Source of the DNA: a virus | IMG/VR virus record: IMGVR_UViG_3300020446_000067 | Location: 1 to 26,678 of that record | Direction: 5' to 3' (one strand) | DNA length: 26,678 bases | Shown here: positions 767 to 23,723 of the stretch, piece after piece | How positions within the stretch are numbered: the stretch's first letter is position 1 | Layout of the letters: each line of letters begins with the position of its first letter | The notes under the pieces: generated by a model | Seen by the model: only the letters and a program-made list of their open reading frames with translations | The model's database searches: none | Told to the model about the DNA's origin: nothing | Translations under genes and position numbers: made by a program

Positions 767-1389
767 GGACTAGTATAAACGATATCTTTAGTGTGCCTAT
801 ATATCAATCCCCTTTCGGACATGTAGAAATAATCAGGGAGGAAATTAATAAAGCGATAGAACAATCAGATTTTAAAAATGAATGGCAACCTGATAATGAT
901 ACTGCAACAACTACATATGTGCCTAATAAAGAAACAAATGTAATTGAAAAATTTAGTATGTCAATTTTTAAAAAAGGCTTAATGTATCATTGCTATGAAT
1001 ATTTAAAACAAACACAGCAACCTTTTGTTGATAATACTTTACAAGTAGATGCATCATGGATAAACATATTTTCTACAAAAGAATTAATAGGTTACCATGA
1101 GCATGGATACCAGCCTAATATGATAAGCGGTGTGTACTATCATGAAGCACCTGAAAACTGTGGAGATATTATTTTTAAAAGTAGCAATCCTTATACTGTT
1201 AGCTTTCCTCACCCATCGCCTTTATATAACAACTTATTTAAAATTAAAGCAATACAAGGAAATATACTATTATTTCCTAGCTGGATTCTACACAAAGTAG
1301 AACCTAACAAATCGGAAAATCAAAGATCATCTTTGTCTTTTAATGTAACATTTGATTATACATACTATAGTAGGAACGAAAATGAATAA
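763..1389 (+). CDS. 2OG-Fe(II) oxygenase, TIGR02466-like (1 of 3)
   Basis: A protein of 208 residues, probably a 2-oxoglutarate/Fe(II)-dependent hydroxylase of the TIGR02466 / 2OG-FeII_Oxy_5 type. The visible core is a His-rich metal motif at residues 112-114 (HEH), followed by SGVYY (residues 122-126). The distal metal His is H167 in FPSWILHKVEPN, with R178 as candidate 2-oxoglutarate anchor in the closing strand (QRSSLSFNV). I chose the ATG at 763, which overlaps the previous stop as ATGA, over an in-frame ATG at 727 that would add twelve residues buried in the upstream gene. Its stop overlaps the halogenase start. The substrate is unknown. Relatives are common in marine phages and are assumed to hydroxylate proteins or small molecules. 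Confidence 0.75.
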   Translation: MRTSINDIFSVPIYQSPFGHVEIIREEINKAIEQSDFKNEWQPDNDTATTTYVPNKETNVIEKFSMSIFKKGLMYHCYEYLKQTQQPFVDNTLQVDASWINIFSTKELIGYHEHGYQPNMISGVYYHEAPENCGDIIFKSSNPYTVSFPHPSPLYNNLFKIKAIQGNILLFPSWILHKVEPNKSENQRSSLSFNVTFDYTYYSRNENE

Positions 1390-2914
1390 AAAAATAGAAA
1401 ATATTATAATTTTTGGCGGTGGTACTAGTGGTTGGTTAACAGCTTCTTATCTAACAGCAAATCTAAGATTACCAACAAAAATTACTCTTATAGAAGATGC
1501 AAGTGCTGGTCCAATCGGTGTTGGTGAAGGCACACAACCACTAACAGCACAATTTTTATATGCTTGTGGACTTGATCCTAAACAATGGATGCAACCAAGC
1601 AATGCTAGTTTTAAATTTGGTGTTGAACTTACTGGTTGGAATGAAGATCCTTACTTTGTTGATAATGATAGTGTAAACAATTATATGCCAACTACAGGAA
1701 TTTTTACAAGCGATTACTTTATAGGAAAGCCGTATAAAGAATTTGCTAAATGGCATCCTGCTTATAGATTGGCTAAAGCAAATAAAAGTCCAAAAATGAC
1801 TGAACTTTTAGATCATAATTATAATCAAGGTTTAGACGGGTACGGTGCAGTGCATTTTGGTGCATATGATATAATTACTGCATTAAAAGATCTATTAGGA
1901 GATAAAATAGAATATGTAGATACAAAAATATCTAGTGCGGAAACAGACGAAAACGGAATAACAAAACTAATTGATGAAGAAGGAAAAGAATATTCTGCAG
2001 ATTTATACTTAGATTGTTCAGGGTTCAAAAGTCAATTACTAGAAAAAACACTAGGATCAGAATTTGTCGATTATAAAAAAGAAGGCTGGTTGTTGAATAA
2101 TAGTGCAGTAGCTATACCTACACAATATACAAAACCAGAAGAAGAGTGTCACCCTTATACAAAAGCAACTACAATGACATGTGGTTGGAGATGGACTATC
2201 CCTACATATGCACGAATAGGTAACGGTTATGTATATGATAGTGATTTTATTTCTCCAGAAGATGCTGAAAAAGAATTAAGAGAAGCAATAGGTGATTTTG
2301 ACACTCCAGCAAAGCATTTACAAATGAAATGTGGTACACACAAAGAAATTGCTCTTAAAAATGTATGCGGTATTGGCTTAGCTGGCGGGTTTGTTGAACC
2401 ATTAGAAGCAACTGGGATAACATTTACAACTGGCATTGTGAAATCTTTATGTGAGTTGCTAAACATTTTTGGATCAAATTGGAATCAACAAGTTACAGAT
2501 AATTTGAACCAAGGTTGGTATGAAATGTGTGTAGAAATATTAACATTTGTTTGGTCCCATTATTACTTTAGTCAAAGATCAGATACTCCTTATTGGAAAA
2601 AAATAAGAGAAAAAACACCGACAGAGTTACCAAGTGATGCACAATTTATGTTAAATCAATATTTTCCAGAACTAAAAAGATTTTTGTTCTTTAGTAAACA
2701 AAGTATGTTTAGTTCACAACAATGGTTTAGCATGTTACATGCCGGCGGAGCATATAAAACTTTTGAAGGTACATTTGGTCACAGCGGAAAAGTTGAAGAA
2801 TATATAGAAGACTTTTTAAAGCAACAAACTGATAGAGTAGATAATGTAATTAAAAAGTTTCCAAATCAGTATACATATTTAAAGGATTGGTATGAAGGAT
2901 GGACAGTAGATTAA
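1382..2914 (+). CDS. Flavin-dependent halogenase (tryptophan halogenase family), first copy
   Basis: 510 residues, close to the usual length of the PF04820 family, which uses reduced FAD, oxygen and halide to halogenate an aromatic substrate. All diagnostic parts are visible. They are the dinucleotide-binding GGGTSG near residues 12-17, GVGEGT near 46-51, and the catalytic lysine at K78 in ASFKFG, matching Lys79 of PrnA/RebH. The WxWxIP signature is at 269-274 (WRWTIP), and FVEPLEATGI at 337-346 carries E342, equivalent to the catalytic Glu. The start at 1382 has AGGA six bases upstream and overlaps the previous stop; an in-frame ATG at 1352 lies inside the oxygenase gene. No flavin reductase is seen nearby, so host reductase is presumably used. 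A viral precedent is VirX1, a cyanophage halogenase. The substrate is not known. Confidence 0.9.
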   Translation: MNKKIENIIIFGGGTSGWLTASYLTANLRLPTKITLIEDASAGPIGVGEGTQPLTAQFLYACGLDPKQWMQPSNASFKFGVELTGWNEDPYFVDNDSVNNYMPTTGIFTSDYFIGKPYKEFAKWHPAYRLAKANKSPKMTELLDHNYNQGLDGYGAVHFGAYDIITALKDLLGDKIEYVDTKISSAETDENGITKLIDEEGKEYSADLYLDCSGFKSQLLEKTLGSEFVDYKKEGWLLNNSAVAIPTQYTKPEEECHPYTKATTMTCGWRWTIPTYARIGNGYVYDSDFISPEDAEKELREAIGDFDTPAKHLQMKCGTHKEIALKNVCGIGLAGGFVEPLEATGITFTTGIVKSLCELLNIFGSNWNQQVTDNLNQGWYEMCVEILTFVWSHYYFSQRSDTPYWKKIREKTPTELPSDAQFMLNQYFPELKRFLFFSKQSMFSSQQWFSMLHAGGAYKTFEGTFGHSGKVEEYIEDFLKQQTDRVDNVIKKFPNQYTYLKDWYEGWTVD

Positions 2915-3480
2915 GTTTATTTCACTCGGATTTATTTTTACGTAAAAATATAGGTACTAAAGATCAAATAGATGATTTACGAAGACAAATATTAGAAACT
3001 AAAAATACCGAAGGTACAGCATTAACAGAAAATAATCCAAATTGTTGGAGATCTAATGCTAATTATCAAAACTTAGATTGGCTTATGAAAGCAACACAAG
3101 AACTTACAATGCGGGCCGCTGAATATTATTTTGAAATGGACGAATTTTTTAAAGGATATGTTACACAAAAAAGAATTAACATTAATTATTGGACAAATGT
3201 TAATGATGTAGGAGGAGGCAATGTACTTCATACACATGAAAAAGATTGCTTTGCGGCTGTATACTATTTAGATGCAGAAGATACCGGACTAATACATTTT
3301 AGTAATCCAGCTAATGTTTTAAATCAATGCAATAGACATTCTCCTTTTACTAGGTCTATGTCATTACCACCAGAAGATAACAGTTTGATATTATGGCCTG
3401 CGTGGATTCCACACGAAGTGGAAGTAAATCAATCTAATAAACAAAGGATAAACCTTGCATTTAGCATAATGGTAGCATAA
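2899..3480 (+). CDS. 2OG-Fe(II) oxygenase, TIGR02466-like (2 of 3)
   Basis: 193 residues. The C-terminal half follows the same plan as the oxygenase at 763-1389. It has an HTHEKD metal motif (H111, H113) followed by AAVYYLDAEDTG, then LILWPAWIPHEVEVN with distal H172, and R183 before the final strand (QRINLAFSI). This supports a 2-oxoglutarate/Fe(II) hydroxylase of the TIGR02466 type. The start overlaps the halogenase stop by 16 bases, with a GAAGG directly against the ATG; the next in-frame Met is far inside the protein, so 2899 is the only reasonable start. It lies between the halogenase and an unknown protein, linked to the latter by a TAATG stop/start. Substrate unknown. It is not a recent duplicate of its neighbour, since only the catalytic core is similar. 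Confidence 0.72.
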   Translation: MDSRLSLFHSDLFLRKNIGTKDQIDDLRRQILETKNTEGTALTENNPNCWRSNANYQNLDWLMKATQELTMRAAEYYFEMDEFFKGYVTQKRININYWTNVNDVGGGNVLHTHEKDCFAAVYYLDAEDTGLIHFSNPANVLNQCNRHSPFTRSMSLPPEDNSLILWPAWIPHEVEVNQSNKQRINLAFSIMVA

Positions 3481-4677: not shown

Positions 4678-5419
4678 ATTAGAATTTGTAAGTTTACTAC
4701 CAGAAGTTACAGAAATAATGCCTATTATTCCTGCTTCTAAACAACAGTATAATTGGGTAAAAAAAGCATACGAAAACTATAAAAATTCTGACTACAAAGA
4801 TAAAAATACCAGTAGTGATAGATTCACCCATGTGATGAGATGCCCAGGAATGATAAGCCTAAATAACACTGGTTGGATACAAAGATCATGGCAAGATATA
4901 ATCATTGAAACAAATGGAGATGGCAAAACATTTCAATGGCGTACTCCTATTAATCAAAAAATTATAGATACTGATCATGGCTGGAAGTGGGATTACATCA
5001 GTTATCATTCTGAAGATAATTATGGCGTGTATAATACTGATAAGAAAAACATACAATCTGTTGTAAAAGTTCAAAGTCCTTGGATTGTATATGTACCTAA
5101 AGGATATTCTTTACTGTGTATGCCTATTCCTTATCCTGATAACCATGACTTTACAAGTTGTATAGGGTTCCTAGAAGATGCCGATAAAGGACCTAATTTT
5201 TTAAATGTACAAATGTTTTGGCATGTTTTTGATGGCACAACCAAGATTCCTGCAGGCACTCCGTTGTGTCAATACATATTAGTAAAGAAAGATAAAGTTG
5301 ACTCAGTAGTAAGAGGATATGATAAGAAAGATATAGATAATTTAAGATTAAGGGCACACTTGTTAGACAGTAAGTTTGTGCCAAATTACAATGATCTTAA
5401 AAAAGTAAGGTGGAAATAA
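4634..5419 (+). CDS. Unknown protein, paralogue of 3480-4211 (DUF6065-like)
   Basis: 261 residues. It matches the protein at 3480-4211 block by block: NKLEFVS, RCPG followed by an aromatic and W-x-D, VVKVQSPWIV, a Pro-Gly then MPIPYPD, and AGTPLCQYI. It therefore belongs to the same unrecognised (DUF6065-like) family. It has twelve extra N-terminal residues (MLDRLKKKILKP, strongly basic) before the conserved part begins, and these overlap the end of the preceding gene. The ATG at 4634 has AAGGT seven bases upstream, which supports the longer form. There is no signal peptide or transmembrane segment. The stop overlaps the start of the next oxygenase gene (TAATG). The two copies have diverged widely, so the duplication is old or the copies were acquired separately. 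Function unknown. Confidence 0.55.
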   Translation: MLDRLKKKILKPQNKLEFVSLLPEVTEIMPIIPASKQQYNWVKKAYENYKNSDYKDKNTSSDRFTHVMRCPGMISLNNTGWIQRSWQDIIIETNGDGKTFQWRTPINQKIIDTDHGWKWDYISYHSEDNYGVYNTDKKNIQSVVKVQSPWIVYVPKGYSLLCMPIPYPDNHDFTSCIGFLEDADKGPNFLNVQMFWHVFDGTTKIPAGTPLCQYILVKKDKVDSVVRGYDKKDIDNLRLRAHLLDSKFVPNYNDLKKVRWK

Positions 5420-5997
5420 TGGAAGATTTTATATATGAAAAACCAAATGCACTTAATAGAAAAGAATGTGCTGACGTTATTGAATATTTCGAAACAATGC
5501 GGAAACAAGGACTAGTAATTAATAGACAAGCAATGGGTGATGGTTTAGCACACCATAAAAAAGATGAATCAATTTTTTTATTAGAACCTGACACATTAAG
5601 ATTAGAAAAAACAGCACCAACATCTGTCATGCTGATAGAAAAAATTAAAGATGCTTATGCCGAATATGTAAATGAATACAGCTTACTTAACCAATCTGCA
5701 CCACACGGAATTTACAGTGTAAAATTACAAAGGACAGAACCAGGTGGTGGATTTATGAGTTGGCATTATGAAAATGACGGAAGATTAGCTTCTAATAGAT
5801 TTGTAGTTTTCTCAATATATTTAAATGATGTTAGCGAAGGCGGCGAAACAGAATTTTTATATCAACGTAAAAGATTTAAACCTGAGCAAGGAAAACTACT
5901 ACTATGGCCAGCGGCATTTACCCACACACATAGAGGAAATCCTCCTCTAAATGAGGTTAAATACATTGCAACAGGATGGATAGAATACTTTGAATGA
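5419..5997 (+). CDS. 2OG-Fe(II) oxygenase, prolyl 4-hydroxylase-like (3 of 3)
   Basis: 192 residues with the layout of the 2OG-FeII_Oxy_3 / P4H-type fold. The first metal motif is H116-x-E118 in MSWHYENDG, with Glu in place of the commoner Asp. It is followed by FSIYLNDVSEGGETEF, the hallmark strand-turn of this family. The distal motif is THTHRGNP with H171, and K181 in VKYIATGW is the likely 2-oxoglutarate anchor. I start it at the ATG at 5419, which overlaps the preceding stop (TAATG) and has AAGGTGG upstream; a GTG at 5410 would add three residues. The catalytic region differs from the two TIGR02466-like oxygenases, so this is a separate lineage. It is coupled to the J-domain gene by an ATGA overlap. 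Substrate unknown. Confidence 0.8.
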   Translation: MEDFIYEKPNALNRKECADVIEYFETMRKQGLVINRQAMGDGLAHHKKDESIFLLEPDTLRLEKTAPTSVMLIEKIKDAYAEYVNEYSLLNQSAPHGIYSVKLQRTEPGGGFMSWHYENDGRLASNRFVVFSIYLNDVSEGGETEFLYQRKRFKPEQGKLLLWPAAFTHTHRGNPPLNEVKYIATGWIEYFE

Positions 5998-6242
5998 ACG
6001 AGTACAAGATATTAAATATATCACCAAAAGCTACCGATCAACAAATTAAAACTAAATTTAAAAAACTGTGTCAAATACATCACCCAGACAAAGGTGGTAA
6101 TTCAGATAAATTTAGAATAATAGTTGATGCCTATAATAGTCTCTGCATAAAACGTAAAATGTCTACTATGAGTTTCGATGAAAGTGGAGATCAGTTTTTT
6201 AATAGATATTTTGGCAATAGTAAACCACCTTATAGGAGATAA
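5994..6242 (+). CDS. Stand-alone J-domain (DnaJ-like) protein
   Basis: 82 residues. The first ~55 form a compact J domain: a YKILNISPKAT start, a basic helix (IKTKFKKLCQIHH), the HPD signature at residues 30-32 followed by KGGN, and a helix III ending IVDAYNSL. J domains stimulate the ATPase of Hsp70 (DnaK), with HPD contacting the chaperone. This protein lacks the Gly/Phe, zinc and C-terminal client domains of DnaJ. It would therefore recruit host DnaK through the J domain while the short tail (about 30 residues, ending PPYRR) targets it elsewhere. The ATG at 5994 overlaps the oxygenase stop. Small J proteins occur in other T4-like phages, and a role in virion assembly is plausible but not shown. 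Confidence 0.85.
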   Translation: MNEYKILNISPKATDQQIKTKFKKLCQIHHPDKGGNSDKFRIIVDAYNSLCIKRKMSTMSFDESGDQFFNRYFGNSKPPYRR

Positions 6243-6484: not shown

Positions 6485-7798
6485 ATGAGTAGAAGTGCTA
6501 TATTTGATCGAATTAGAATTATACCAAGACCTGACGATTTTCTCGATAGAAACGTAGGAAGTAGTGGTGAAATCTTCTTTGATAAACAAGCAAATACATT
6601 ACGTTTGTATAACGGAAAAGCTACGGGTGGTTTTTCAATACTTACAGCAGGAAATTTTACTCAACAAATAGCAAATACCGGCGTTGCAGTATTAGAAAAA
6701 ACTGTTACTGTCGGTGTTGATTCTGTTGCAGGACAAGCTACAGGAGTTTTTTACATAGACGGTGTAGAGAAACCTATATTACAGTTTGTAAGAGGGTATA
6801 CTTACGTATTTGATCAATCTGATGATTCAAATGCTAACTTTGGCGGACTATGGCATCCATTGATGTTTTCTACTACACAAGATGGAGATCTAGTACCAGG
6901 TGGCCTTCACTATGACCAGATTACTGCTGACCATGGCATAGTTTACTTACTAGATGACGATCCTGTTTCAATGAGGTACTATACAGACAATTTTAAAACT
7001 GCAACAACAAAAAAGATTTTAATTACTGTGCAAAGTAATGCACCTGATACACTATGGTATTGGTGTCACTTTCATACTGGTCAAGGTAACCAAATAAATA
7101 TTTCTGATCCAGGAACTGGTACAGGTAGCGGTAGTTCTAGTATAGAAGTTTCTGACACAGTACCTTCAACTCCTTCTGCAGGAAATATTTGGTTTAATAG
7201 CACTACCGGAAAGTTATATGTATATGTTAATGACGGTGATAGTTCACAATGGGTGCAACCAGCATCAAGCACTGTAGGCGATTACACACTTTTATCTAAT
7301 AAACCAACAATACCAACGTCAATCACAGACCTTGGTATTACAGACGGCACGTCTGGACAAGTATTGCAAACAGACGGAGCTGGTACATTTTCTTTTACTA
7401 CTGTAGCTACAGCAGGAATAATAGGAAGTTTTACTTTTACTGGTACTAACATTGATACAGACGATAGTAGTGGTATAACTATTACTCCACCGTTAACAGC
7501 AAATAGTGACTTAACTGTGCAAAATGATTTAAATGTAGTAAATGATGTGTTTGCTAAAAACTTTATTTCAACAGGCACTGGTTCGCCAGAGTTTGATAGT
7601 GCTAGTAAAATTACATTTACAGCACCAGACGGTGTTGTAGTTAATTTAGGTGCATTAAGGTTAGCAAATTTTAATAATGCTCAAAGAGATGCATATTCAG
7701 CAGACAACGGTGATATGATATATAACACTCAAGACAACAAAATACAAGCGTATATAAATGGTGCGTGGAGACGCATAGATGACTCGGCGATAGTATAA
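6485..7798 (+). CDS. Fibre-like virion protein with cupredoxin-like domain (Gln-type site)
   Basis: 437 residues. The N-terminus (FDRIRIIPRPDDFLDRN, then GEIFFD, LRLYNG) is a module I associate with structural proteins of marine T4-like phages. Residues ~95-207 resemble a cupredoxin: a strand ending in YTYVFD, H124 in WHPLMF, and a C-terminal loop WCHFHTGQG with C194 and H197. Where amicyanin has its axial Met there is Q200, a residue used as axial ligand in stellacyanin. After a Gly/Ser linker comes an IWFNSTTGKLYVYV hairpin. The C-terminus has a fibre-type end (DAYSADNGDMIYNT, then INGAWRRID). A late element lies upstream and the stop overlaps the protease start (TAATG). Copper binding is inference; a virion role follows from promoter, repeats and neighbours. 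Confidence 0.65.
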   Translation: MSRSAIFDRIRIIPRPDDFLDRNVGSSGEIFFDKQANTLRLYNGKATGGFSILTAGNFTQQIANTGVAVLEKTVTVGVDSVAGQATGVFYIDGVEKPILQFVRGYTYVFDQSDDSNANFGGLWHPLMFSTTQDGDLVPGGLHYDQITADHGIVYLLDDDPVSMRYYTDNFKTATTKKILITVQSNAPDTLWYWCHFHTGQGNQINISDPGTGTGSGSSSIEVSDTVPSTPSAGNIWFNSTTGKLYVYVNDGDSSQWVQPASSTVGDYTLLSNKPTIPTSITDLGITDGTSGQVLQTDGAGTFSFTTVATAGIIGSFTFTGTNIDTDDSSGITITPPLTANSDLTVQNDLNVVNDVFAKNFISTGTGSPEFDSASKITFTAPDGVVVNLGALRLANFNNAQRDAYSADNGDMIYNTQDNKIQAYINGAWRRIDDSAIV

Positions 7799-9360
7799 TG
7801 AGTGAAAAAGAATATACAGTAATTGTAAAAGCAGGTGTAAACTTAGAAGAAGTTGAAAATGATTTAACTGCTTCTTCGGGAGATTCTAGTTCTATACCTA
7901 ATAGAAGTGTAGACATAGTTAATGCTAGACCCGGTAGTAGAAGAGCAACACACTTTGCATTAACTGATGAAGAAGCTAAGAATTTAGAAAACGATCCAAG
8001 AGTCGAAGCTGTAGAAATACCACCAGATCAAAGAGATGATATAAAGATAGGTTTTAACGCAACCCAAATTGCAAACTTTACAAAAGGAGGTAATCCAGAT
8101 ACTGATACTTCTAAAGTTAATTGGGGGTTAAAAAGAGCTAACATGCCTACAAATCTATATGCAAGTGGCACAACAACAGACCAAAATTACGAATATGCTT
8201 TAGAAGGTGAAGGTGTTGATATTGTTATACAAGATAGCGGAGTACAATTTGATCATCCAGAATTTATTGACAATTTAGGAAACAACAGATGTGTATCGTT
8301 TGATTGGTATTCAACTGGAGTATCAGGATCTTTAAATGCAAATTTTTATAGAGATTACGACGGGCACGGTACGCACTGTGCAGGAATAGTTGCAGGTAAA
8401 ACATATGGTTTTGCAAAAAAAGCTAGAATATTCAGTCAAAAACTATCAGGACTAGAAGGTGCAGGAGATGCTGGTACAGGTATGCCTATACTAGATAGTT
8501 TTGATGCAATTAGGTTATGGCATGCTAATAAACCTGTTCAACCTAATGGATACAAAAGACCAACAGTGGTAAACATGAGTTGGGGCTATTTTAGTGAGGT
8601 CACAGGAAATCCTACAGGTGGCACATATAGAGGAACAAGCTGGACTTACGGTGTTGATTATACAACAAGAACTGGGTTATGGGCAGGCACTGGCGTAGTT
8701 CCAGAATTGGCGGCACTGAGTGCTTCAAGAATGCCTAATCGTGTTACAGCAGTAGATGCTGAAGTCGAAGATTTAATTGCAGGCGGAGTGCATGTTGTTA
8801 TTGCCGCAGGAAATGATTTTTATAAAGGTGATTTATCTACAGGTACTGATTATAATAATTCAGTAGTATATGGAGGATTAACATATTTCTATCATAGAGG
8901 AAGTAGTCCACATAGTGATAATTCACTTATGGTTGGAAATATTGACACAGGAGTTCAAAATGATCAAGATAAAACATATCAAAGTTCAAGTAGAGGCCCA
9001 AGAGTAAATATATGGGCTCCAGGAACAAATATTTTTTCATGTGTAAGTACAACAAATGTTTATAGTGGACTTGACTACCCTTCAAATACTAATTTTAAGA
9101 TAGCAAAATTAAATGGAACAAGTTTTGCGGCTCCTCAAGTAGCTGGTGTTTCAGCACTTATGGCTGGTGCTAACCCACAGATTACTCCGGCTCAACTAAA
9201 GCAACAGATTACAGCAGATGCAAAAAATGTAATTTACGATACAGCTAGTGACAGTGATTATGACCAATTTGGAACAAGTCTACTAGGTGCAGATAACAAA
9301 ATGTTGTTTAATAAATATGGTAGACAACCTTTTAAATTTAAAAATATAGGATTAGGATAG
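7798..9360 (+). CDS. Subtilisin-like serine protease (S8) in the virion operon
   Basis: 520 residues with the complete S8 triad: D146 in VIQDSGV, H190 in DGHGTHCAG, and S442 in NGTSFAAPQVAG. N339 in VVIAAGND fits the oxyanion hole. Residues ~5-75 (starting YTVIVKAGV and ending near RVEAVEIPP) look like an I9-type propeptide, so autocleavage near residues 75-85 is likely. There is no signal peptide, so it is not exported by the normal route. The gene is coupled to the upstream fibre gene by a stop/start overlap and followed by another fibre gene after twelve bases. It probably either matures tail or fibre proteins or is carried on the particle to attack host surface proteins. The family call is secure; the role is inference. 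Confidence 0.9.
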   Translation: MSEKEYTVIVKAGVNLEEVENDLTASSGDSSSIPNRSVDIVNARPGSRRATHFALTDEEAKNLENDPRVEAVEIPPDQRDDIKIGFNATQIANFTKGGNPDTDTSKVNWGLKRANMPTNLYASGTTTDQNYEYALEGEGVDIVIQDSGVQFDHPEFIDNLGNNRCVSFDWYSTGVSGSLNANFYRDYDGHGTHCAGIVAGKTYGFAKKARIFSQKLSGLEGAGDAGTGMPILDSFDAIRLWHANKPVQPNGYKRPTVVNMSWGYFSEVTGNPTGGTYRGTSWTYGVDYTTRTGLWAGTGVVPELAALSASRMPNRVTAVDAEVEDLIAGGVHVVIAAGNDFYKGDLSTGTDYNNSVVYGGLTYFYHRGSSPHSDNSLMVGNIDTGVQNDQDKTYQSSSRGPRVNIWAPGTNIFSCVSTTNVYSGLDYPSNTNFKIAKLNGTSFAAPQVAGVSALMAGANPQITPAQLKQQITADAKNVIYDTASDSDYDQFGTSLLGADNKMLFNKYGRQPFKFKNIGLG

Positions 9361-9372
9361 AAGGAGTAACAT

Positions 9373-10983
9373 ATGGCAATAAATTTTCCAAATAGTCCTT
9401 CAGTAAGTGATACACATGTTGTAGGTGGCACAACATGGCAATGGGACGGCACAGCTTGGAATATTGTTGGCAATTCAATTGAAGCAAACAAATTTACAAG
9501 TGTAACAGGTGATACAGGAAGTATTGTTGCAGATGCAACTGCTGATACATTTAAGGTAGCAGGTGGCACAGATATTTCAACATCTATTACAGGGGATGTG
9601 CTAACAGTAAACTTTACTGGAGCATCTGGAGGCACTACACAAAATTTATTTGAAACATTTACAGCTGATCAAGGAAGTACAACTGCTAACACAACTACAG
9701 ATACATTGAGTATTGCCGGCGGTACAAATATATCTACAGTAATAGCAACAGATTCGGATATAGTCACTATTAATATGGATTCTTTTCCAATTAATTTTTT
9801 AAGTGATGTCGACACATCATCTAATCCACCTAACGTAGGCCAAGTTTTAAAATGGGATGGAGCAAAGTGGGCACCTGGTGCAGATGCAACTTCAGGAGGA
9901 GCAGGCACTGATGCAGATACACTTGATGGGTTTGATAGTCAATACTTCTTAAATTATAATAACTTGCAAAATACACCAGCTGTGTTAACATTATCAAGTT
10001 TGAGTGTTGGTGTAGAAAATACACCTGCAGGAAATGGTGCTATAAGTTATGACAATACAACTGGGCAATTTAAATTTACACCACCAACAGCCGCAGGCTT
10101 AGGAGCATTAACTGCGGAAGTTAACGATCTTTCATCAGCAGTTACATGGGCAAATGTACCAGATGCAAATATTACACAAAGTTCAGTAACCCAACACCAA
10201 GCGGCATTAAGTATTACAGAAAGCCAAATAAGCGATTTACAAAGTTATTTGACATCTGTATCAGCAAGTGATCTTAGTGCAATTAGTATAGACGCACTAA
10301 GTGATGTAGATACAACAACATCTGCACCTAGTAGCAATGATGTATTAGCTTGGGATGGAGCTAAATGGGCACCTAGTTCAGCCGCAGGTGGAGGTGATGC
10401 TAACCAGAATGCATTTAGTAACATAGCCGTTGCAGGACAAAATACTATACAAGCAGATACTACTACTGATACACTTAATTTAATAGGGTCGGGCGGTATA
10501 AACATCACAACTAATGACAGTTCAGATACTGTTACAATAGGATTTACAGCAACTGGTTTAAACTTTAACACCTTACAAGATGCTAATAATGCTAGTTTAA
10601 ATGTTGCATTAATTTATGAACCAGCAATAGCAATGCTTAGGGTATCAGCAGTAGGACAATCGGCCTACTTATTCAATTCACATTATTCAGGAAACAATCC
10701 AACAATTTATGCACTTGCAGGTACTACTATTGCTTTTGATTTAAGTAGTGCAGGATCACATCCTTTTGAAATACAAGATCCAACATCAAATCCTTACAAT
10801 GTAGGATTAGTATATGTTGACAGTTCCGGAGGCGTGCAAACAGGAAGTAATGCACAAGGTAAAGATAGTGGTGTTTTATATTGGCGTATTCCTGAGTCTA
10901 TTAGTGGAAATTATAGATATCAATGCACAGCACACCCTGCTATGGTAGGTGCAATTACAATTAAAAGATTGTCAGTAATTTAA
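9373..10983 (+). CDS. Fibre-like virion protein with C-terminal cupredoxin (full type-1 Cu ligand set)
   Basis: 536 residues, with AAGGAG seven bases before the ATG. Residues 1-30 carry a W-rich cap (TWQWDGTAWN). Three beta repeats with a TxDTxxxxGG(T)xIx pattern lie near 41-82, 96-135 and 348-392. A 27-residue unit beginning LSDVDT and ending WDGAKWAP occurs at 143-169 and again at 309-335. Residues ~445-536 look like a cupredoxin: GTTIAFDLSS, H463 in SHPFEI, then YQCTAHPAMVGAI with C518, H521 and M524. The C-x2-H-x2-M spacing equals that of amicyanin. The repeats and the preceding fibre and protease genes support a tail fibre or other surface protein. Its stop shares bases with the stop of the convergent minus-strand gene. 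Metal content is predicted, not shown. Confidence 0.7.
   Translation: MAINFPNSPSVSDTHVVGGTTWQWDGTAWNIVGNSIEANKFTSVTGDTGSIVADATADTFKVAGGTDISTSITGDVLTVNFTGASGGTTQNLFETFTADQGSTTANTTTDTLSIAGGTNISTVIATDSDIVTINMDSFPINFLSDVDTSSNPPNVGQVLKWDGAKWAPGADATSGGAGTDADTLDGFDSQYFLNYNNLQNTPAVLTLSSLSVGVENTPAGNGAISYDNTTGQFKFTPPTAAGLGALTAEVNDLSSAVTWANVPDANITQSSVTQHQAALSITESQISDLQSYLTSVSASDLSAISIDALSDVDTTTSAPSSNDVLAWDGAKWAPSSAAGGGDANQNAFSNIAVAGQNTIQADTTTDTLNLIGSGGINITTNDSSDTVTIGFTATGLNFNTLQDANNASLNVALIYEPAIAMLRVSAVGQSAYLFNSHYSGNNPTIYALAGTTIAFDLSSAGSHPFEIQDPTSNPYNVGLVYVDSSGGVQTGSNAQGKDSGVLYWRIPESISGNYRYQCTAHPAMVGAITIKRLSVI
9799..9879 (+). repeat. Intragenic 27-codon repeat, copy 1 (LSDVDT...WDGAKWAP)
   Basis: Encodes residues 143-169 of the fibre protein. 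The second copy lies at 10297-10377, 498 bases later. Both start LSDVDT and end WDGAKWAP, with a variable middle. Third-position differences show the copies are not recent. Confidence 0.8.
10297..10377 (+). repeat. Intragenic 27-codon repeat, copy 2
   Basis: Second copy of the unit at 9799-9879, encoding residues 309-335 of the same protein. The WDGAKWAP end is identical at the protein level. Confidence 0.8.
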
Positions 10984-11243
10984 GTTTTAACAGATAACAG
11001 GCTTTGTACTTCAGATCTTAAACGTACAATTTTTTCTCTATCATCAGAAGCGAGATTAGGTCTAATAAATCCACCCGCTCTAGAATCATGCTGTTGGTCT
11101 ATTGATTCTGCTACACGCAATATTTCTTTGCATAATTTTAAAACTTTTTCTTTTATGTTTTTATTAGGTTGAGATCTAGCAGTTTTTTTGAAACCTTCTA
11201 TTTCTACTCTAAGCGTACTAGCATGTGTTAATTTATTCAGCAC
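10980..11243 (-). CDS. Small hypothetical helical protein, GTG start
   Basis: 87 residues starting with GTG. The start is supported by GGAG seven bases upstream (CCGGAGAATAAAA, then GTG), and it overlaps the cupin gene end by 11 bases. The protein is basic and almost wholly helical in appearance (KEKVLKLCKEILRVAESID, later DDREKIVRLRSEVQSLLSV), with a short loop containing SRAGGFIRPN. No family is recognised. It is the last gene of the minus-strand operon, and its stop (TAA read from 10982-10980) shares two bases with the stop of the plus-strand fibre gene. It could be a small DNA-binding or structural protein; there is nothing to decide. Confidence 0.5.
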   Translation of the reverse strand: MLNKLTHASTLRVEIEGFKKTARSQPNKNIKEKVLKLCKEILRVAESIDQQHDSRAGGFIRPNLASDDREKIVRLRSEVQSLLSVKT

Positions 11244-11610
11244 TTTTATTCTCCGGATTTATTGGTTTTGCAGGTATAACAATATGCGTATCACTTCCTG
11301 CATTATTATTTACCTCAGAAACAGAGCTATTATCTACTAGGGCTTCCAAAGAACAAGGTATTAATGGAGGAGCATGAAATACACTACCTTCTGACATTTC
11401 TTGATCATATATTTGTCCTGTAGATGTATCTATATATCTTAACTTAAATTTACCTGTATTAACAAAGTAATGTTTCTCTTTTTCTTTATGATAGTGTAAA
11501 GGAGTTTTATTTCCAGCTTTTTCAAATACTAATATTTTACCTTGGTAATTTGCTGTTGATGCCCAAAGTAAATCATAACCGTAATCTGTTTTAATTGAAT
11601 TGTTTGCCAT
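11233..11610 (-). CDS. Cupin-domain protein with Cys in the second metal motif
   Basis: 125 residues forming a single cupin barrel. Motif 1 is intact: G33-x5-H39-x-H41-x3-E45-x7-G53 (HYHKEKE). In motif 2, beginning EGSVFHAPPLIP, the position normally held by the metal-binding His is C86 (IPCSLEA). The metal site would therefore be His2-Glu-Cys, as in some thiol-ligand cupins, or weakened. The last ~35 residues are a polar tail. The gene overlaps the halogenase end by 20 bases and the next gene by 11, so the three are translationally linked. It may act on the product or substrate of the neighbouring halogenase, or be a sugar or metabolite binding protein; this is inference from context. Confidence 0.7.
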   Translation of the reverse strand: MANNSIKTDYGYDLLWASTANYQGKILVFEKAGNKTPLHYHKEKEKHYFVNTGKFKLRYIDTSTGQIYDQEMSEGSVFHAPPLIPCSLEALVDNSSVSEVNNNAGSDTHIVIPAKPINPENKSAE

Positions 11611-12802
11611 TGATTTTATTTTCCAAGTTTAGTCCTTTTATGTTTTGATACCAAGAATGTAACCCCCAAGTGCCATATTCTGTGTCATTACTACTAGATT
11701 TAAATTCTTTGTCTACTAATCGATTCATAATTTTATTTTTGCTTGATTTTACAGTATTAAAAAATTCAGCAAATTCTGTATCATAAAACACTCTATTTTT
11801 ATATAATTTATTTGCTTTATCCTGTGCGTTTATCCAAAAATGAGTGTCGTATTTACTGCCTGCAAGGTAATGTAAATTTATCATATTTTCTACTTGTTGC
11901 AATTTTAGTGTGTAGACATTGTTTATATAGTCTAAAGAGTCGTTTACTCCTAACACATACCCTGCACAGAGTTTACTAACCATTATCATAGAACTAATAG
12001 AAGTGGCTTCTAATGGTTCCAAAAAGAAACTTGCGTTACCATTATATCCTACATGGTCTTCAAAATTTGTATTTCTATAATAATTTTTAAAACTAAAGGC
12101 ATTTGTAGTTTCACTAGGTTGTAAATTAAATTCTTCAAAAATATTTTTTACATCTTCTTTTACTTCTTCTAAAGAATTTATTTTATTATTGTACATATAC
12201 CCTATACTACATCTGTTTTGTAATGGTATTCCCCATACCCAACCATATGGTCTTGCAACAGTTAACGTATAATCAAACTTTGGTTCTGGCCAAAAACATT
12301 GGGTGACATAAACACTATTAACTGGTATGTATTCAGTTAGGTTATAATCTTCGTATGACTTAGGTTTGCCCGAGCAATCTAGCACATAGTCACTGTCATT
12401 ATTGTGTGTATCTTTATTACCTTGTATAATTTTTACATTAGGATAATTTTCTTTTATTTTTTGTTCTATAAAATCCTGTAATTTTAATGCGTTGAAATGA
12501 ATTGCAACATTAGGCGTCATAAACTTGTGCGTATAATCACAACCTGTAGTTGTATATCCTATTTTTCTTATTCCATTTTTATAATTACCGTCAATATGTT
12601 TTAGGTCCGGCCATCCAAATCCTAAACTTTCTCCTAACATGTTTACAACATCTAAAGTAGTTCCTTCTCCTACAGCTTGTGGATTGATTTCAGGATCGTA
12701 TATCCATTCTATTTCTAAATCATGGTAATTAGATATATTAGCAATATTTGCAACTGAAATACAACCTGCTGTGCCTTTACCTATGACTGTAATCTTTTTC
12801 AT
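11591..12802 (-). CDS. Flavin-dependent halogenase-like protein, second and shorter copy
   Basis: 403 residues, about 100 fewer than the first halogenase, but with the family's key parts. These are GKGTAG (residues 8-13) for FAD, AVGEGTT (43-49), and candidate catalytic K75 in GNYKNGI. The WxWxIP signature is at 188-193 (WVWGIP), and FLEPLEATS around 260-268 carries E265. Everything needed for hypohalous acid chemistry thus seems present, and the shortening lies mainly in the middle substrate-binding region. It begins within the stop of the NUDIX gene (ATGA on the minus strand) and overlaps the cupin gene. It is strongly diverged from the copy at 1382-2914, so it is probably not a local duplication. 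Some PF04820 members have other activities, so the substrate and even halogenation are unproven. Confidence 0.8.
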   Translation of the reverse strand: MKKITVIGKGTAGCISVANIANISNYHDLEIEWIYDPEINPQAVGEGTTLDVVNMLGESLGFGWPDLKHIDGNYKNGIRKIGYTTTGCDYTHKFMTPNVAIHFNALKLQDFIEQKIKENYPNVKIIQGNKDTHNNDSDYVLDCSGKPKSYEDYNLTEYIPVNSVYVTQCFWPEPKFDYTLTVARPYGWVWGIPLQNRCSIGYMYNNKINSLEEVKEDVKNIFEEFNLQPSETTNAFSFKNYYRNTNFEDHVGYNGNASFFLEPLEATSISSMIMVSKLCAGYVLGVNDSLDYINNVYTLKLQQVENMINLHYLAGSKYDTHFWINAQDKANKLYKNRVFYDTEFAEFFNTVKSSKNKIMNRLVDKEFKSSSNDTEYGTWGLHSWYQNIKGLNLENKINGKQFN

Positions 12803-17732: not shown

Positions 17733-20700
17733 ATGGCAGGATTAGTATCACCAGGCGTACAGGTTAGCGTTGTTGATGAAAGTTTTTACACACCAGCTGA
17801 ACCAGGTACCCTTCCAATGTTATTTGTCGCAACTGCGGCAAACAAGCAAAACGGTTCCGGCACAGGTATTGCACCGGGTACCCAAACAGCAAATGCAGGT
17901 AAACCTTACCTATTAACTTCGCAAAGAGATCTAGTAGATACTTTTGGCGATCCAGTTTTCAAAGCAGACACAACCAACAATCCAATTCATGGAAGCGAAT
18001 TAAACGAATATGGATTACAAGCGGCTTACTCATACTTGGGTATTGCTAACAGAGCTTATGTTGTAAGAGCAGATTTAGATGTAGGACAATTAGAAGCAAG
18101 TGCAACAGCACCCGCGGCAAATCCAACAGATGGAACATATTGGTTTGACACTAAGAATACACTATGGGGTATTCAAGAGTGGAATGGTGCTTCAGTATTA
18201 AGCGGCGGACAAAACTTTACTAACAAAGTTCCGATTGCAATTACAGATGAAACACAAACAAGCAATACAGGATCATTAAGCACAAACGGATACACCGGCG
18301 TTATACCTGCCAGTACAGTCGGCGCCGTTGGTGATTATGCTGTAGTTGCAACTTCAACTTTAAATAGAATATACTACAGAAACACTTCAGGTACTTGGGT
18401 ACTTGTAGGAAGTGATGCATGGACTAAGAGTTGGGCAACTGTAAAAGGTTCAACTTCTAACCCTTCATTTGCAGGCACTGCAAATATTACTATTAATGAA
18501 ACTGCGGTTGCAGTTAACACTTCAGATACTGTAACAAATGTTGCAAGTACAATTAATGGACTTAGTATTCCTGGAGTTACAGCGGCGGCAGTAGATGGTA
18601 GATTAGAAATCTACAGTGATGGTAATTCATTATCTGAAGATTCAACACTAAGTGGTGAAATAATTATTGCAGGTGATTCAACTAGATTAACAGAGCTAGG
18701 AATTTCAGCAGGAACATATTATCCACCTATTTGCCAAATTTCAAAACACACAAGTATTCCAGAATGGAAAACAGGAGATACTTACACAAGACCAACAGGT
18801 AGTGTATGGATGAAGACAACTACTCCTAACTTGGGTGCAAAATATGTTGTTAAGAAATGGAATAACAGCACAGCATTATGGGAAACTGCAAATCCAAGCA
18901 TATATGCATCTAATAACGAAGCTATCTTTAACGCAGACAAAACAGGCGGCGGAGCAAACATGCTTACTGGCGATTTGTATGTATTAAGTAATGTAGCTGG
19001 AGATGTTAGACCATTAGCTACTTTTAAATTATATCGTAGAAATGGAATAGCACCTACAACAATTACAGGTGCAAAAATTATTGCTGGAAGTATTAGTAGT
19101 GGATCGGCTTCATTTACAGTACAAAGTACAGATAACTCACAACTTGCTTTTAATGCGGCTGTAACTGTTTCAGGTACATATACTGGCGCGGCTTCAGATG
19201 CAAATGTTTTAGCAGGCGCTATTAATGATGCAAATATTGAAAACGTTACTGCAACTGTAAATGCTCAAAATAAAGTTGTAATATCACATGCTTTAGGTGG
19301 AGAAATTAAATTTGTAGATACAAATAGTGTTCTTACAGAAGCTGGGTTTACACCATTTGTGGATGCCAACACAGGTACTCCAAACTTATCTTATGTACAA
19401 GGTACAGACAGTGGAACAAGTCCTTTACAATTACAAGCTAGCCTTTGGAAAGTTCTTTCATATACTGCTAGTGACAATGAAGTTACAGCAACAACAGCAG
19501 AAGGTACTTTATGGTACAATTCAACTGTTGACGAAGTAGACATCCTTGTACACAATGGAAGCGAATTTGTAGGTTATCTATATGATGGATCAAGCGGACA
19601 AGCCGCAACAGCAAGTCCTTACTATAATGTAGATGCTACAAAAGAAACAGATCCTGCAGGTCCTATTGTAGGTGCAACAGCACCAACAACACAGAGTGAC
19701 GGTACTGCATTGGTGTCAGGTGATCTTTGGATTGATACTTCAGACTTAGAAAACTATCCAAAACTATATAAACATAATTCAGACAGAACTGATTTACCAG
19801 TTGCAAACAGATGGTTTGCTGTTGATACAACAGACCAAACAACTGAAAACGGTATTCTGTTTGCTGATGCAAGATACAATACACAAGGAGCTAATTCTAA
19901 TAATGCTGGCGACATTGATGACTTATTAGCAAGTGATTACATGGATCCAGATGCTCCAGATCCTGCATTATATCCAAAAGGCATGTTGTTATGGAATACT
20001 AGAAGAAGTGGTTTTAATGTTAAAAAATACAGAAGAAACTACATCAACACAGCAACTGACAATACTAGATTTAACGATCAGTCAATGTCAGGATATTTTG
20101 CAAATCGTTGGGTAACAGAATCTGCTAATCAACCAGATGGCTCTGGTAGCTTTGGTAGAAAAGCTCAGCGTAAAGTTGTTGTACAAGCACTTCAAGCATT
20201 AGTTAATAGCAACGAAGATATTAGAGACGATGAGTCAAGAATCTTTAATATGATGGCATGTCCTGGGTATCCAGAATTAATTGGCGAGATGAAATCACTT
20301 AACTTTGATAGAGGCTTAACAGCATTTATAGTTGGAGATTCACCGTTCAGATTAAAAGCCAATGCAACTGACATAAACAACTGGGCGACCAATGTTAATA
20401 ATGCTGTAGAAGACAACGACAATGGTTTAGTTACAGCAGATCCATACTTGGCAGTATTTTATCCAAGCGGATTTACAAGTGACAACTTTGGTAAAAACGT
20501 TGTTGTACCACCAAGTCACATGATGCTTAGAACTATTGCACTTAGTGATCAAGTTTCTTTTCCATGGTTTGCACCAGCAGGCACAAGAAGAGGCGGAATT
20601 ACAAATGCTAGTTCAACAGGATTCGTTGACGCAGAAGGCGAATTTAAATCAGTAGCATTGAACGAAGGTTTGAGAGATACTTTATATGCAAATAATGTAA

Positions 20701-21095
20701 ATCCAATTACGTTTATTACAGGTGCTGGTTTAGTAAACTTTGGTCAAAAAACAAGACAACTTACAGCAAGTGCTCTTGATAGAATCAATGTATCTAGATT
20801 GGTAATATATCTACGTAGTCAACTTAATGTTCTTGCAAAACCTTACTTGTTTGAACCAAATGATAAAATTACAAGAGATGAAATAAAACAAGCGGCTGAA
20901 AGTTTATTATTAGAACTTGTAGGTCAAAGAGCACTTTATGATTTCTTAGTAGTTTGTGATGAATCAAATAATACACCTGCAAGAATTGATAGAAACGAGC
21001 TTTACTTAGATATTGCTGTTGAACCTGTTAAGGCAGTTGAGTTTATTTACATTCCACTTAGACTTAAAAATACTGGAGAAATAGCAGGATTGTAA
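17733..21095 (+). CDS. 18: Tail sheath protein gp18, greatly enlarged
   Basis: 1120 residues, against 659 in T4 gp18. The sheath core is split. Residues 1-~125 contain the N-terminal domain (AGLVSPGVQVSVVDESF, QAAYSYLGIANRAYVVRADL). From ~720 to the end is the C-terminal sheath domain (SGYFANRWV, MMACPGYPELI, AFIVGDSPFR, VFYPSGF, PWFAPAGTRRGGI, then LYDFLVVCDESNNTP). Between them lie ~600 residues of beta-rich insertion. It contains Trp hairpins (GTYWFDT, GSVWMKT, GTLWYNS, GDLWIDT) and two segments (~250-327, ~446-548) resembling flagellar hook IN motifs (NETAVAVNTSDTVTNVASTI). The insert should decorate the outside of the sheath. The start has AGGAG. The sheath identity is secure; the insertion's role is unknown. 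Confidence 0.92.
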   Translation: MAGLVSPGVQVSVVDESFYTPAEPGTLPMLFVATAANKQNGSGTGIAPGTQTANAGKPYLLTSQRDLVDTFGDPVFKADTTNNPIHGSELNEYGLQAAYSYLGIANRAYVVRADLDVGQLEASATAPAANPTDGTYWFDTKNTLWGIQEWNGASVLSGGQNFTNKVPIAITDETQTSNTGSLSTNGYTGVIPASTVGAVGDYAVVATSTLNRIYYRNTSGTWVLVGSDAWTKSWATVKGSTSNPSFAGTANITINETAVAVNTSDTVTNVASTINGLSIPGVTAAAVDGRLEIYSDGNSLSEDSTLSGEIIIAGDSTRLTELGISAGTYYPPICQISKHTSIPEWKTGDTYTRPTGSVWMKTTTPNLGAKYVVKKWNNSTALWETANPSIYASNNEAIFNADKTGGGANMLTGDLYVLSNVAGDVRPLATFKLYRRNGIAPTTITGAKIIAGSISSGSASFTVQSTDNSQLAFNAAVTVSGTYTGAASDANVLAGAINDANIENVTATVNAQNKVVISHALGGEIKFVDTNSVLTEAGFTPFVDANTGTPNLSYVQGTDSGTSPLQLQASLWKVLSYTASDNEVTATTAEGTLWYNSTVDEVDILVHNGSEFVGYLYDGSSGQAATASPYYNVDATKETDPAGPIVGATAPTTQSDGTALVSGDLWIDTSDLENYPKLYKHNSDRTDLPVANRWFAVDTTDQTTENGILFADARYNTQGANSNNAGDIDDLLASDYMDPDAPDPALYPKGMLLWNTRRSGFNVKKYRRNYINTATDNTRFNDQSMSGYFANRWVTESANQPDGSGSFGRKAQRKVVVQALQALVNSNEDIRDDESRIFNMMACPGYPELIGEMKSLNFDRGLTAFIVGDSPFRLKANATDINNWATNVNNAVEDNDNGLVTADPYLAVFYPSGFTSDNFGKNVVVPPSHMMLRTIALSDQVSFPWFAPAGTRRGGITNASSTGFVDAEGEFKSVALNEGLRDTLYANNVNPITFITGAGLVNFGQKTRQLTASALDRINVSRLVIYLRSQLNVLAKPYLFEPNDKITRDEIKQAAESLLLELVGQRALYDFLVVCDESNNTPARIDRNELYLDIAVEPVKAVEFIYIPLRLKNTGEIAGL

Positions 21096-23288: not shown

Positions 23289-23723
23289 ATGGCAAGGTTC
23301 GCACAGGGAAAATTTGTTTGTAAAAATCCTGGCAAATATGTAGGAAACAAAAAACCTACTTATAGAAGTAGTTGGGAATTTGCTTTTATGCGTTTTTGCG
23401 ATGAACACCCAGGTGTAACACAATGGGCTTCTGAAGCAATCAAAATTCCATATAGAAATCCATTGACAGGAAAAAATACAATTTATGTTCCTGATTTTTT
23501 TATTAATTATTCAGACAAAAACGGCTCTAATCATGCTGAATTAATAGAAGTCAAGCCACAAAATCAATCGTTGAGAGAGAAAGTTGGTAATAGTAGACAT
23601 AATCAAGCCAGCTACATACTTAACAAAGCTAAATGGGGAGCCGCAAATCATTGGTGTAAACAACAAGGACTGCGTTTTAGGGTAATAACCGAGAAAGATA
23701 TTTTCCACCAAGGCATGAGATAA
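23289..23723 (+). CDS. 4: Head completion protein gp4 (TnsA-like nuclease fold)
   Basis: 144 residues, close to T4 gp4 (150). The matching pattern is clear: GKFVCKNPGKYVGN, PTYRSSWEFAFMRF, a central WASEAIKIPY, VPDFFI, then LIEVKP and the C-terminal KWGAANHWCKQQGLRFRVITE. E30, D69, E87 and K89 fit a PD-(D/E)xK nuclease site of the TnsA type. In T4, gp4 (also called gp50) acts late in head completion and is needed for infectious particles. The gene begins one base after the previous stop without a clear Shine-Dalgarno sequence, so it is likely translated by coupling. A late element for gp16 overlaps its end. Confidence 0.88.
   Translation: MARFAQGKFVCKNPGKYVGNKKPTYRSSWEFAFMRFCDEHPGVTQWASEAIKIPYRNPLTGKNTIYVPDFFINYSDKNGSNHAELIEVKPQNQSLREKVGNSRHNQASYILNKAKWGAANHWCKQQGLRFRVITEKDIFHQGMR

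Follow-up and report, generated by a model that had tools for sequence, protein, structure and literature searches.

Cupredoxin domains with predicted type-1 copper sites in two tail proteins of a myovirus

In the copper proteins amicyanin, plastocyanin and stellacyanin an Asn follows the first His ligand; stellacyanin and the phytocyanins combine a C-x4-H-x4-Q ligand loop with a disulphide, and multicopper oxidases have an HPF motif at the type-1 site together with second and third histidines. Cyanophages encode a plastocyanin (the petE auxiliary metabolic gene), which is a separate small protein of 107-126 aa. Regarding phage tails, T4 gp9 carries the long tail fibres, and the tail metal sites that we know of are iron, zinc or iron-sulphur sites. 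In T4 gp37, HxH sites that bind iron have been reported, and such sites are also proposed for the tail fibres of marine phages (PMC11705849); a review gives gene 9 of cyanophages as 'Baseplate socket' (PMC2984593). Our literature search, which was partial in coverage, found no description of a cupredoxin in a phage tail, and earlier notice is possible, for example in domain databases. Here we analyse the 26,678-base virus record IMGVR_UViG_3300020446_000067 (the window), which holds myovirus structural genes including a sheath and other virion families (PHROGs), and focus on a predicted cupredoxin domain at the C-terminus of a 536-aa protein and another inside a 437-aa protein. We consider it reasonably probable that both are myovirus baseplate or tail-fibre components, whose cupredoxin domains hold a complete type-1 pocket maintained by selection and would be loaded with copper after lysis to yield a rigid module.

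Identity and predicted fold of the two proteins

The 536-aa protein (9373..10983, + strand) is, judged by its sequence, a member of the cyanophage 'baseplate wedge tail fiber connector' (gp9) family. It matches phrog_677 (baseplate wedge tail fiber protein connector) with an E-value of 1.9e-66 over both the shaft and the C-terminal domain (residues 201-531 on profile positions 80-409 of 412), and relatives occur in 246 phage records at E <=1e-5. The 437-aa protein (6485..7798, + strand), a tail/baseplate protein in which the cupredoxin domain is internal, matches phrog_708 (baseplate wedge subunit) through residues 72-205 (E 7.5e-17; profile positions 556-684), with relatives in 123 phage records at E <=1e-5 (tblastn). 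No full-length match to the 1,383 positions of the phrog_708 profile was found; because the match covers only residues 72-205, we regard the 437-aa protein as sharing a domain with phrog_708 and not as the same protein. The initial annotation of this DNA had called both proteins fibre-like, a fair label that the PHROGs sharpen to phrog_677 and to part of phrog_708, respectively.

The candidate ligands that it had named are present in both proteins. In the 536-aa protein the domain comprises residues 401-536 (10573..10980, + strand), with H463 (10759..10761) within SHPFEI as the predicted N-terminal copper ligand, and C518, H521 and M524 within YQCTAHPAMVG; the predicted loop C518-T-A-H521-P-A-M524, of the form C-x2-H-x2-M, is encoded at 10924..10944. 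In the 437-aa protein the corresponding domain (708-type, hereafter the second type) spans residues 71-213 (6695..7123, + strand), with H124 (6854..6856) within WHPLMF as the predicted N-terminal ligand and C194, H197 and Q200 within YWCHFHTGQGN, the predicted C-x2-H-x2-Q loop C194-H195-F196-H197-T198-G199-Q200 being encoded at 7064..7084. C518 and C194, each the ligand Cys, are the sole cysteines of their proteins. On shuffling, C-x2-H-x2-M arose in 0 of 20,000 versions of the 536-aa protein and C-x2-H-x2-[MQ] in 6 of 20,000 versions of the 437-aa protein. A chance motif is ruled out by these shuffles together with the ligand conservation described below.

Structure prediction gives good support to a Greek-key beta barrel of the cupredoxin type in both domains. 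The C-terminal 136 residues of the 536-aa protein (the gp9-type domain) were modelled by AlphaFold2 with a mean pLDDT of 95.5. Compared with the PDB by Foldseek, this model has 160 matches at E <=0.001 and 1,742 at E <=10; the best is amicyanin 1sf3 (E 1.3e-5), and the 50 best rows of the 1,742 are without exception copper proteins (blue copper proteins, nitrite reductases, laccases and an engineered CuA domain). The best VIA-align match is a copper nitrite reductase (Z 11.5, rmsd 3.7, 122 aligned), the aligned stretch of that chain extending over more than one of its domains; a small laccase aligns with Z 9.9 (rmsd 2.2, 97 aligned). The 143-residue domain of the 437-aa protein was modelled with a pLDDT of 94.7; Foldseek places CueO first (E 4.5e-4) and then rusticyanin (E 8.5e-4), with 19 matches at E <=0.001 and an antibody chain at rank 39 of the list, and the best VIA match is copper nitrite reductase 2dv6 (Z 8.9, rmsd 2.8, 100 aligned). 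The initial annotation had claimed a cupredoxin fold in both proteins, and the structural comparison that it named beforehand as a check bears this out.

Sequence comparisons were based on four alignments: A1, the gp9-type C-terminal 136 residues (46 sequences); A2, the second-type domain (41 members); A3, the second-type 143-residue domain (38 sequences); and A4, which adds cyanophage gp9 domains to A1. At E <=1 the A1 profile matches 38 PDB sequences, every one a cupredoxin or copper enzyme (best E 0.039), and the same is true of all 54 matches of the A4 profile (best E 2.5e-5). When A4 was aligned with phage-encoded plastocyanins by hhalign (85.7%, E 5.5e-6), the His, Cys, His and Met were paired in register. 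By these matches the gp9-type domain is homologous to cupredoxins. The second-type domain aligns with the gp9-type domain (hhalign A2-A4, 97.1%, E 6.3e-11), and it is solely through the latter that its sequence is tied to cupredoxins. Among curated families, Pfam Copper-bind (PF00127) is matched by 30 of the 46 A1 members at E <=1 (best 0.0015) and the amicyanin model TIGR02657 by three (best 0.0015); the gp9-type window domain itself matches no NCBIfam family at E 0.01.

A further family, PF25489 (At5g54830-like), is matched by five of the 41 A2 members (best 2.5e-7) and by the gp9 domain of cyanophage S-SM1 (L131:12310-12663; 0.00017). Of six phage genomes, four have a match to it at E <=0.1, in each case below the cut-off. 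These matches hint that the PF25489 domain might itself be a cupredoxin relative. As to a cellular donor, one scan of genome contigs with the window domain, of a kind that reaches close relatives only, gave 48 pattern matches and no relative among them.

Conservation of the ligands and nature of the metal

Some of the peptides used to seed the first two locus searches carried the ligands, and for this reason three controls for bias were run. In the first, the query was restricted to residues 1-396 of the 536-aa protein, stopping before the domain; it gave 225 pattern matches and 198 relatives, the best 80 of which were kept, corresponding to 79 loci. Within this set the shaft ORF is present in 79 of 79 loci, with 60 distinct tails, and 59 of these 60 carry HP[FT]...C-x2-H-x2-M (56 HPF and 3 HPT). 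In the second control, profiles with the ligand columns set to X were run on all collected loci, including those fetched with ligand peptides. The gp9-type profile recovered 127 distinct domains, comprising 120 HCHM, 5 cut short in the alignment and 2 LCHM. For the second type 89 distinct domains were recovered, 69 of them fully aligned and 20 not (3 of the 20 without ligands where aligned); among the 69, four ligands are present in 62, none in 5, one in 1 and three in 1. Among the fully aligned second-type domains, the 62 that keep His-Cys-His have without exception either a Met or a Gln as the axial residue. The third control considered second-type domains in loci fetched through the gp9 protein alone, and here 30 of 31 fully aligned domains have four ligands, the axial residue being Met in 27 and Gln in 3. 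Separately, two masked-profile matches (L092 and L104) have C-x2-H-x2-M with the first His not aligned and an unusual N-terminal half.

In A1 the positions of H463, C518, H521 and M524 are invariant (46/46), as is the Pro after the first His, and all nine annotated cyanophage gp9 tails that we translated keep the pattern. A masked tblastn query, which matched only 7 records, added nothing to this. Near the window, the His at the H124 position is found in 49 of 51 aligned second-type domains, with axial Gln in 31 and Met in 19. Cyanophage phrog_708 proteins with tandem domains (L131, L213, L214, L216-L220) are informative in another way: the first domain keeps C-x2-H-x2-M in 8 of 8, and the second is without the Cys-x2-His loop in these same 8, providing a natural metal-less contrast. 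The six second-type domains with none or one ligand are all the second domain of annotated cyanophage phrog_708 proteins. The second-type ligands are retained or lost as a set. The initial annotation had also asked for joint conservation of His, Cys, His and Met/Gln as opposed to free variation, and this is confirmed (59 of 60 tails; four ligands in 62 of 69 and none in 5), and in both families the ligands look, from their sequence patterns, to be under selection.

The ligand-less phrog_708 copies bring up the possibility that the domain is an inherited, metal-free cupredoxin fold, with the four residues kept for packing or hydrogen bonding. We regard this as highly improbable. The persistence of those copies speaks in its favour, but the ligands are kept or lost jointly, the axial residue is Met or Gln in every one of the 62 second-type domains keeping His-Cys-His, and a lone loop cysteine is kept in two proteins that are otherwise cysteine-free.

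Which metal would occupy the pocket is suggested by the ligands. His-Cys-His-Met/Gln is the type-1 copper set and the axial position alternates between two residues of type-1 sites, so copper is the best single guess and likely the metal. Cupredoxin sites also take Zn, Co and other ions in vitro, and the virion might accordingly hold Zn or Fe, with copper merely a possible ligand in vitro. The iron reported in the T4 gp37 tail fibre (PMC11705849) agrees with such a scenario, against which stands the copper-type ligand set; we consider it improbable.

The copper-loaded module that we favour would most likely operate as follows. The domain would fold metal-free inside the infected cell and would take up copper after lysis, whereupon the pre-formed pocket would fix it as a stable, rigid module, either close to the joint of baseplate and fibre or within the proximal fibre. 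It is from the predicted fold, the homology, the jointly selected ligands and the placement in baseplate and proximal fibre that we infer the identity of the metal, the time of its loading, the exact site in the particle and a role in structure or attachment rather than catalysis.

Several observations weigh against this interpretation. The Foldseek TM-scores of the gp9-type model lie in a moderate range (0.35-0.54 by query), the rmsd among the matches listed is about 5-10, and the VIA Z of 8.9 for the domain of the 437-aa protein just modestly exceeds the level of unrelated models. By sequence, the second-type profile has no match in the PDB, and its hhalign match to plastocyanin is weak (16.9%) and confined to the C-terminal loop. 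The gp9-type window domain scores under the Copper-bind cut-off (13.1 vs 21.2 bits) and is outscored there by ADAMTS_spacer1 and OFeT_1, also below their own cut-offs, and other Pfam families are matched by up to 12 of the 46 A1 members. Regarding the ligands, the single exception among the 60 tails of the first control, L206, is a gp9-type shaft homologue ending in an unrelated C-terminal domain, and the terminal module is therefore exchangeable; the phrog_708 copy that lacks ligands still keeps the family sequence, and the domain can thus serve without metal. Finally, the subtilase-bearing S-H38 has no match to the first profile at E <=0.01; it is one of 14 records chosen for holding a locus, among which the first profile matches 13 and the second all 14 at this threshold.

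Occurrence in phages and gene neighbourhood

The initial annotation had considered a blue-copper domain on a phage fibre unusual, and this does not hold. When 50,697 phage records were searched with the gp9 domain of S-SM1, 332 matched at E <=0.001; many of these are near-identical isolates, and the ligands are not checked by the search itself. The matching records are named Synechococcus (250), Cyanophage (51), Prochlorococcus (25), Marine (4), Pelagibacter (1) and uncultured (1), so that 326 of the 332 bear cyanophage names; none of the 332 is an enterobacterial phage. The domain also occurs elsewhere in the tail. PSSM2_298 of P-SSM2, annotated as tail spike in a 1,098-aa open frame, has two cupredoxin domains, each with a complete loop, and one is present in the long tail fiber proximal subunit of S-SCSM1. 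The S-SCSM1 record notes this subunit as a virion protein, and 45 proteins of the S-SCSM1 virion were reported by mass spectrometry in the paper on this phage (PMC9602691). The window sheath (17733-21095, 1,120 aa) is closest, among annotated phages, to that of Agrobacterium phage Atu_ph07, and hence the domain is not limited to a single phage lineage. The 12 best of the 2,576 records matching the sheath are Agrobacterium, Sinorhizobium and Pseudomonas phages with genomes of 286-490 kb.

The near confinement of the domain to cyanophage and marine records, and its location in tail proteins, would suit an alternative in which the copper sites act as bait or cargo, tethering the virion to copper-binding or uptake proteins of the host, similarly to the iron 'Trojan/Ferrojan Horse'. 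The iron HxH sites reported in T4 gp37 and proposed for marine phage fibres offer a parallel (PMC11705849). The cyanophage gp9 domain, however, lies in a baseplate/fibre connector and not in a known receptor-binding tip, and the metal of a type-1 site is buried, a poor arrangement for passing it on. We hold this alternative to be unlikely.

If borne out, type-1 copper in the baseplate and fibres would represent a new class of cofactor for virions. The analysis proposes a fold and a likely cofactor for the C-terminal part of a cyanophage protein annotated as connector, baseplate wedge/tail pin or hypothetical, and, with the gp9-type domain in 332 records that are nearly all from cyanophages, it would bear on the assembly and attachment of common marine phages as well as on marine copper chemistry. 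In a more speculative scenario, which we put forward as doubtful, the tails of marine myoviruses, both T4-like and jumbo-related, might as a rule contain copper-loaded cupredoxins, a component so far undescribed, located in gp9 on one side of the joint between baseplate and fibre and in the proximal fibre on the other. The joint would then be gated by copper or redox state, infectivity would depend on copper, and abundant virions would count among the marine copper ligands.

In the window the order of genes is second-type cupredoxin, subtilase and gp9-type cupredoxin, the subtilase (peptidase S8) gene occupying 7798..9360 on the + strand (PF00082, E 6.2e-33). To describe this neighbourhood, 97 distinct gp9-type domains from IMG/VR loci and the window were considered, 43 of which could be evaluated with more than 4.5 kb upstream. 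Upstream of the gp9-type gene, a subtilase and a second-type domain occur together in 15 of the 43, the second type alone in 12, the subtilase alone in 5 and neither in 11; a subtilase is consequently present in 20 of the 43. The window subtilase has the D/H/S motifs DIVIQDSGV, DGHGTHCAG and NGTSFAAP. The profile of phrog_9158 is matched by A1 members, at positions 591-695 in the case of the window member, and an earlier part of it by the window subtilase; by these profile matches phrog_9158 seems to combine, in other phages, a subtilase with a cupredoxin-like terminus. The fold is also shared by two BFVD proteins that bear the name S8/S53 peptidase, and among the loci examined no fused ORF was found.

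Other genes of the window were noted in passing. Flavoproteins of the tryptophan-halogenase family (PF04820) flank the tail genes, at 1352-2914 (+ strand, E 2.5e-85) and 11591-12802 (- strand, E 4.2e-33), and there are three 2OG-Fe(II) oxygenases (727-1389, 2899-3480 and 5410-5997) and a weak cupin match at 11233-11610. The halogenases, oxygenases and cupin make up an unexplained oxidative gene set inside a phage structural cluster. A small J-domain-like protein with HHPDKGG (5994-6242), matching seven PHROGs of unknown function, lies between an oxygenase and the tail genes, and a TnsA-like endonuclease N-terminal domain (PF08722, E 2e-21) is encoded among the tail genes at 23289-23723.

Comparison with known systems

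The gp9-type domain resembles amicyanin in its cupredoxin fold, in its best Foldseek match and in the C-x2-H-x2-M spacing; the amicyanin-type loop proposed by the initial annotation for the 536-aa protein is indeed found in 46 of 46 domains. The amicyanin loop (P94A mutant chain) aligns with the gp9-type profile as yrYqCtsHaamvGsitv / YDYHCTAHPFMRGKVVV. In contrast to amicyanin, the phage domain forms the C-terminal part of a larger protein (536 aa), with 14-20% identity among the amicyanins listed; its first His is followed by Pro (HPF/HPL), and the window domain is not scored by TIGR02657. The likeness to stellacyanin that had been suggested for the 437-aa protein extends to the identity of the axial Gln only: the spacing is C-x2-H-x2-Q, the protein, with its single Cys, lacks the phytocyanin disulphide, and second-type domains in the loci fetched through gp9 mostly have an axial Met (27 M, 3 Q).

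Multicopper oxidases and nitrite reductases offer other points of similarity, given that CueO tops the Foldseek list for the domain of the 437-aa protein and that nitrite reductases are the best VIA matches of both domains. The phage HPF at the first His resembles the type-1 motif of the oxidases, but each phage domain has one site and lacks the additional histidines found in the oxidase motif (the 536-aa protein reads HPFEIQ). These features bear on a redox function, in which the copper would cycle between Cu(II) and Cu(I) and would sense or exchange electrons at the host surface, or trigger a change at the fibre joint. A complete type-1 site suits fast electron transfer, the axial Met/Gln variation would tune the potential, and the relatives include electron carriers. 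Nevertheless, no redox partner was identified in our analysis, and the missing second and third histidines also argue against it. We judge a redox function to be rather unlikely, if still the foremost of the alternatives; in rough order it is followed by copper bait, another metal and a metal-free fold. The copper-loaded structural module is preferred over all four.

Within phages, the cyanophage plastocyanin belongs to the same superfamily, with the four ligands paired (E 5.5e-6), and exceeds the Pfam cut-off in 4 of the 6 phage (cyanophage) genomes searched. It differs in being a separate small protein, the tail domain sitting in large proteins, and in phage plastocyanins an Asn is seen in the sequence after the first His. 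Cyanophage gp9 (phrog_677) is the closest counterpart of the 536-aa protein, which matches it in both shaft and domain, and phrog_708 shares the second-type domain internally. T4 gp37 is similar in having a metal site in a tail protein, the difference being HxH and iron versus His-Cys-His-Met/Gln and predicted copper. Since a Pro follows the first His and the HPF is oxidase-like, we class both domains as cupredoxins with a predicted type-1 site, and neither as an amicyanin nor as a stellacyanin.

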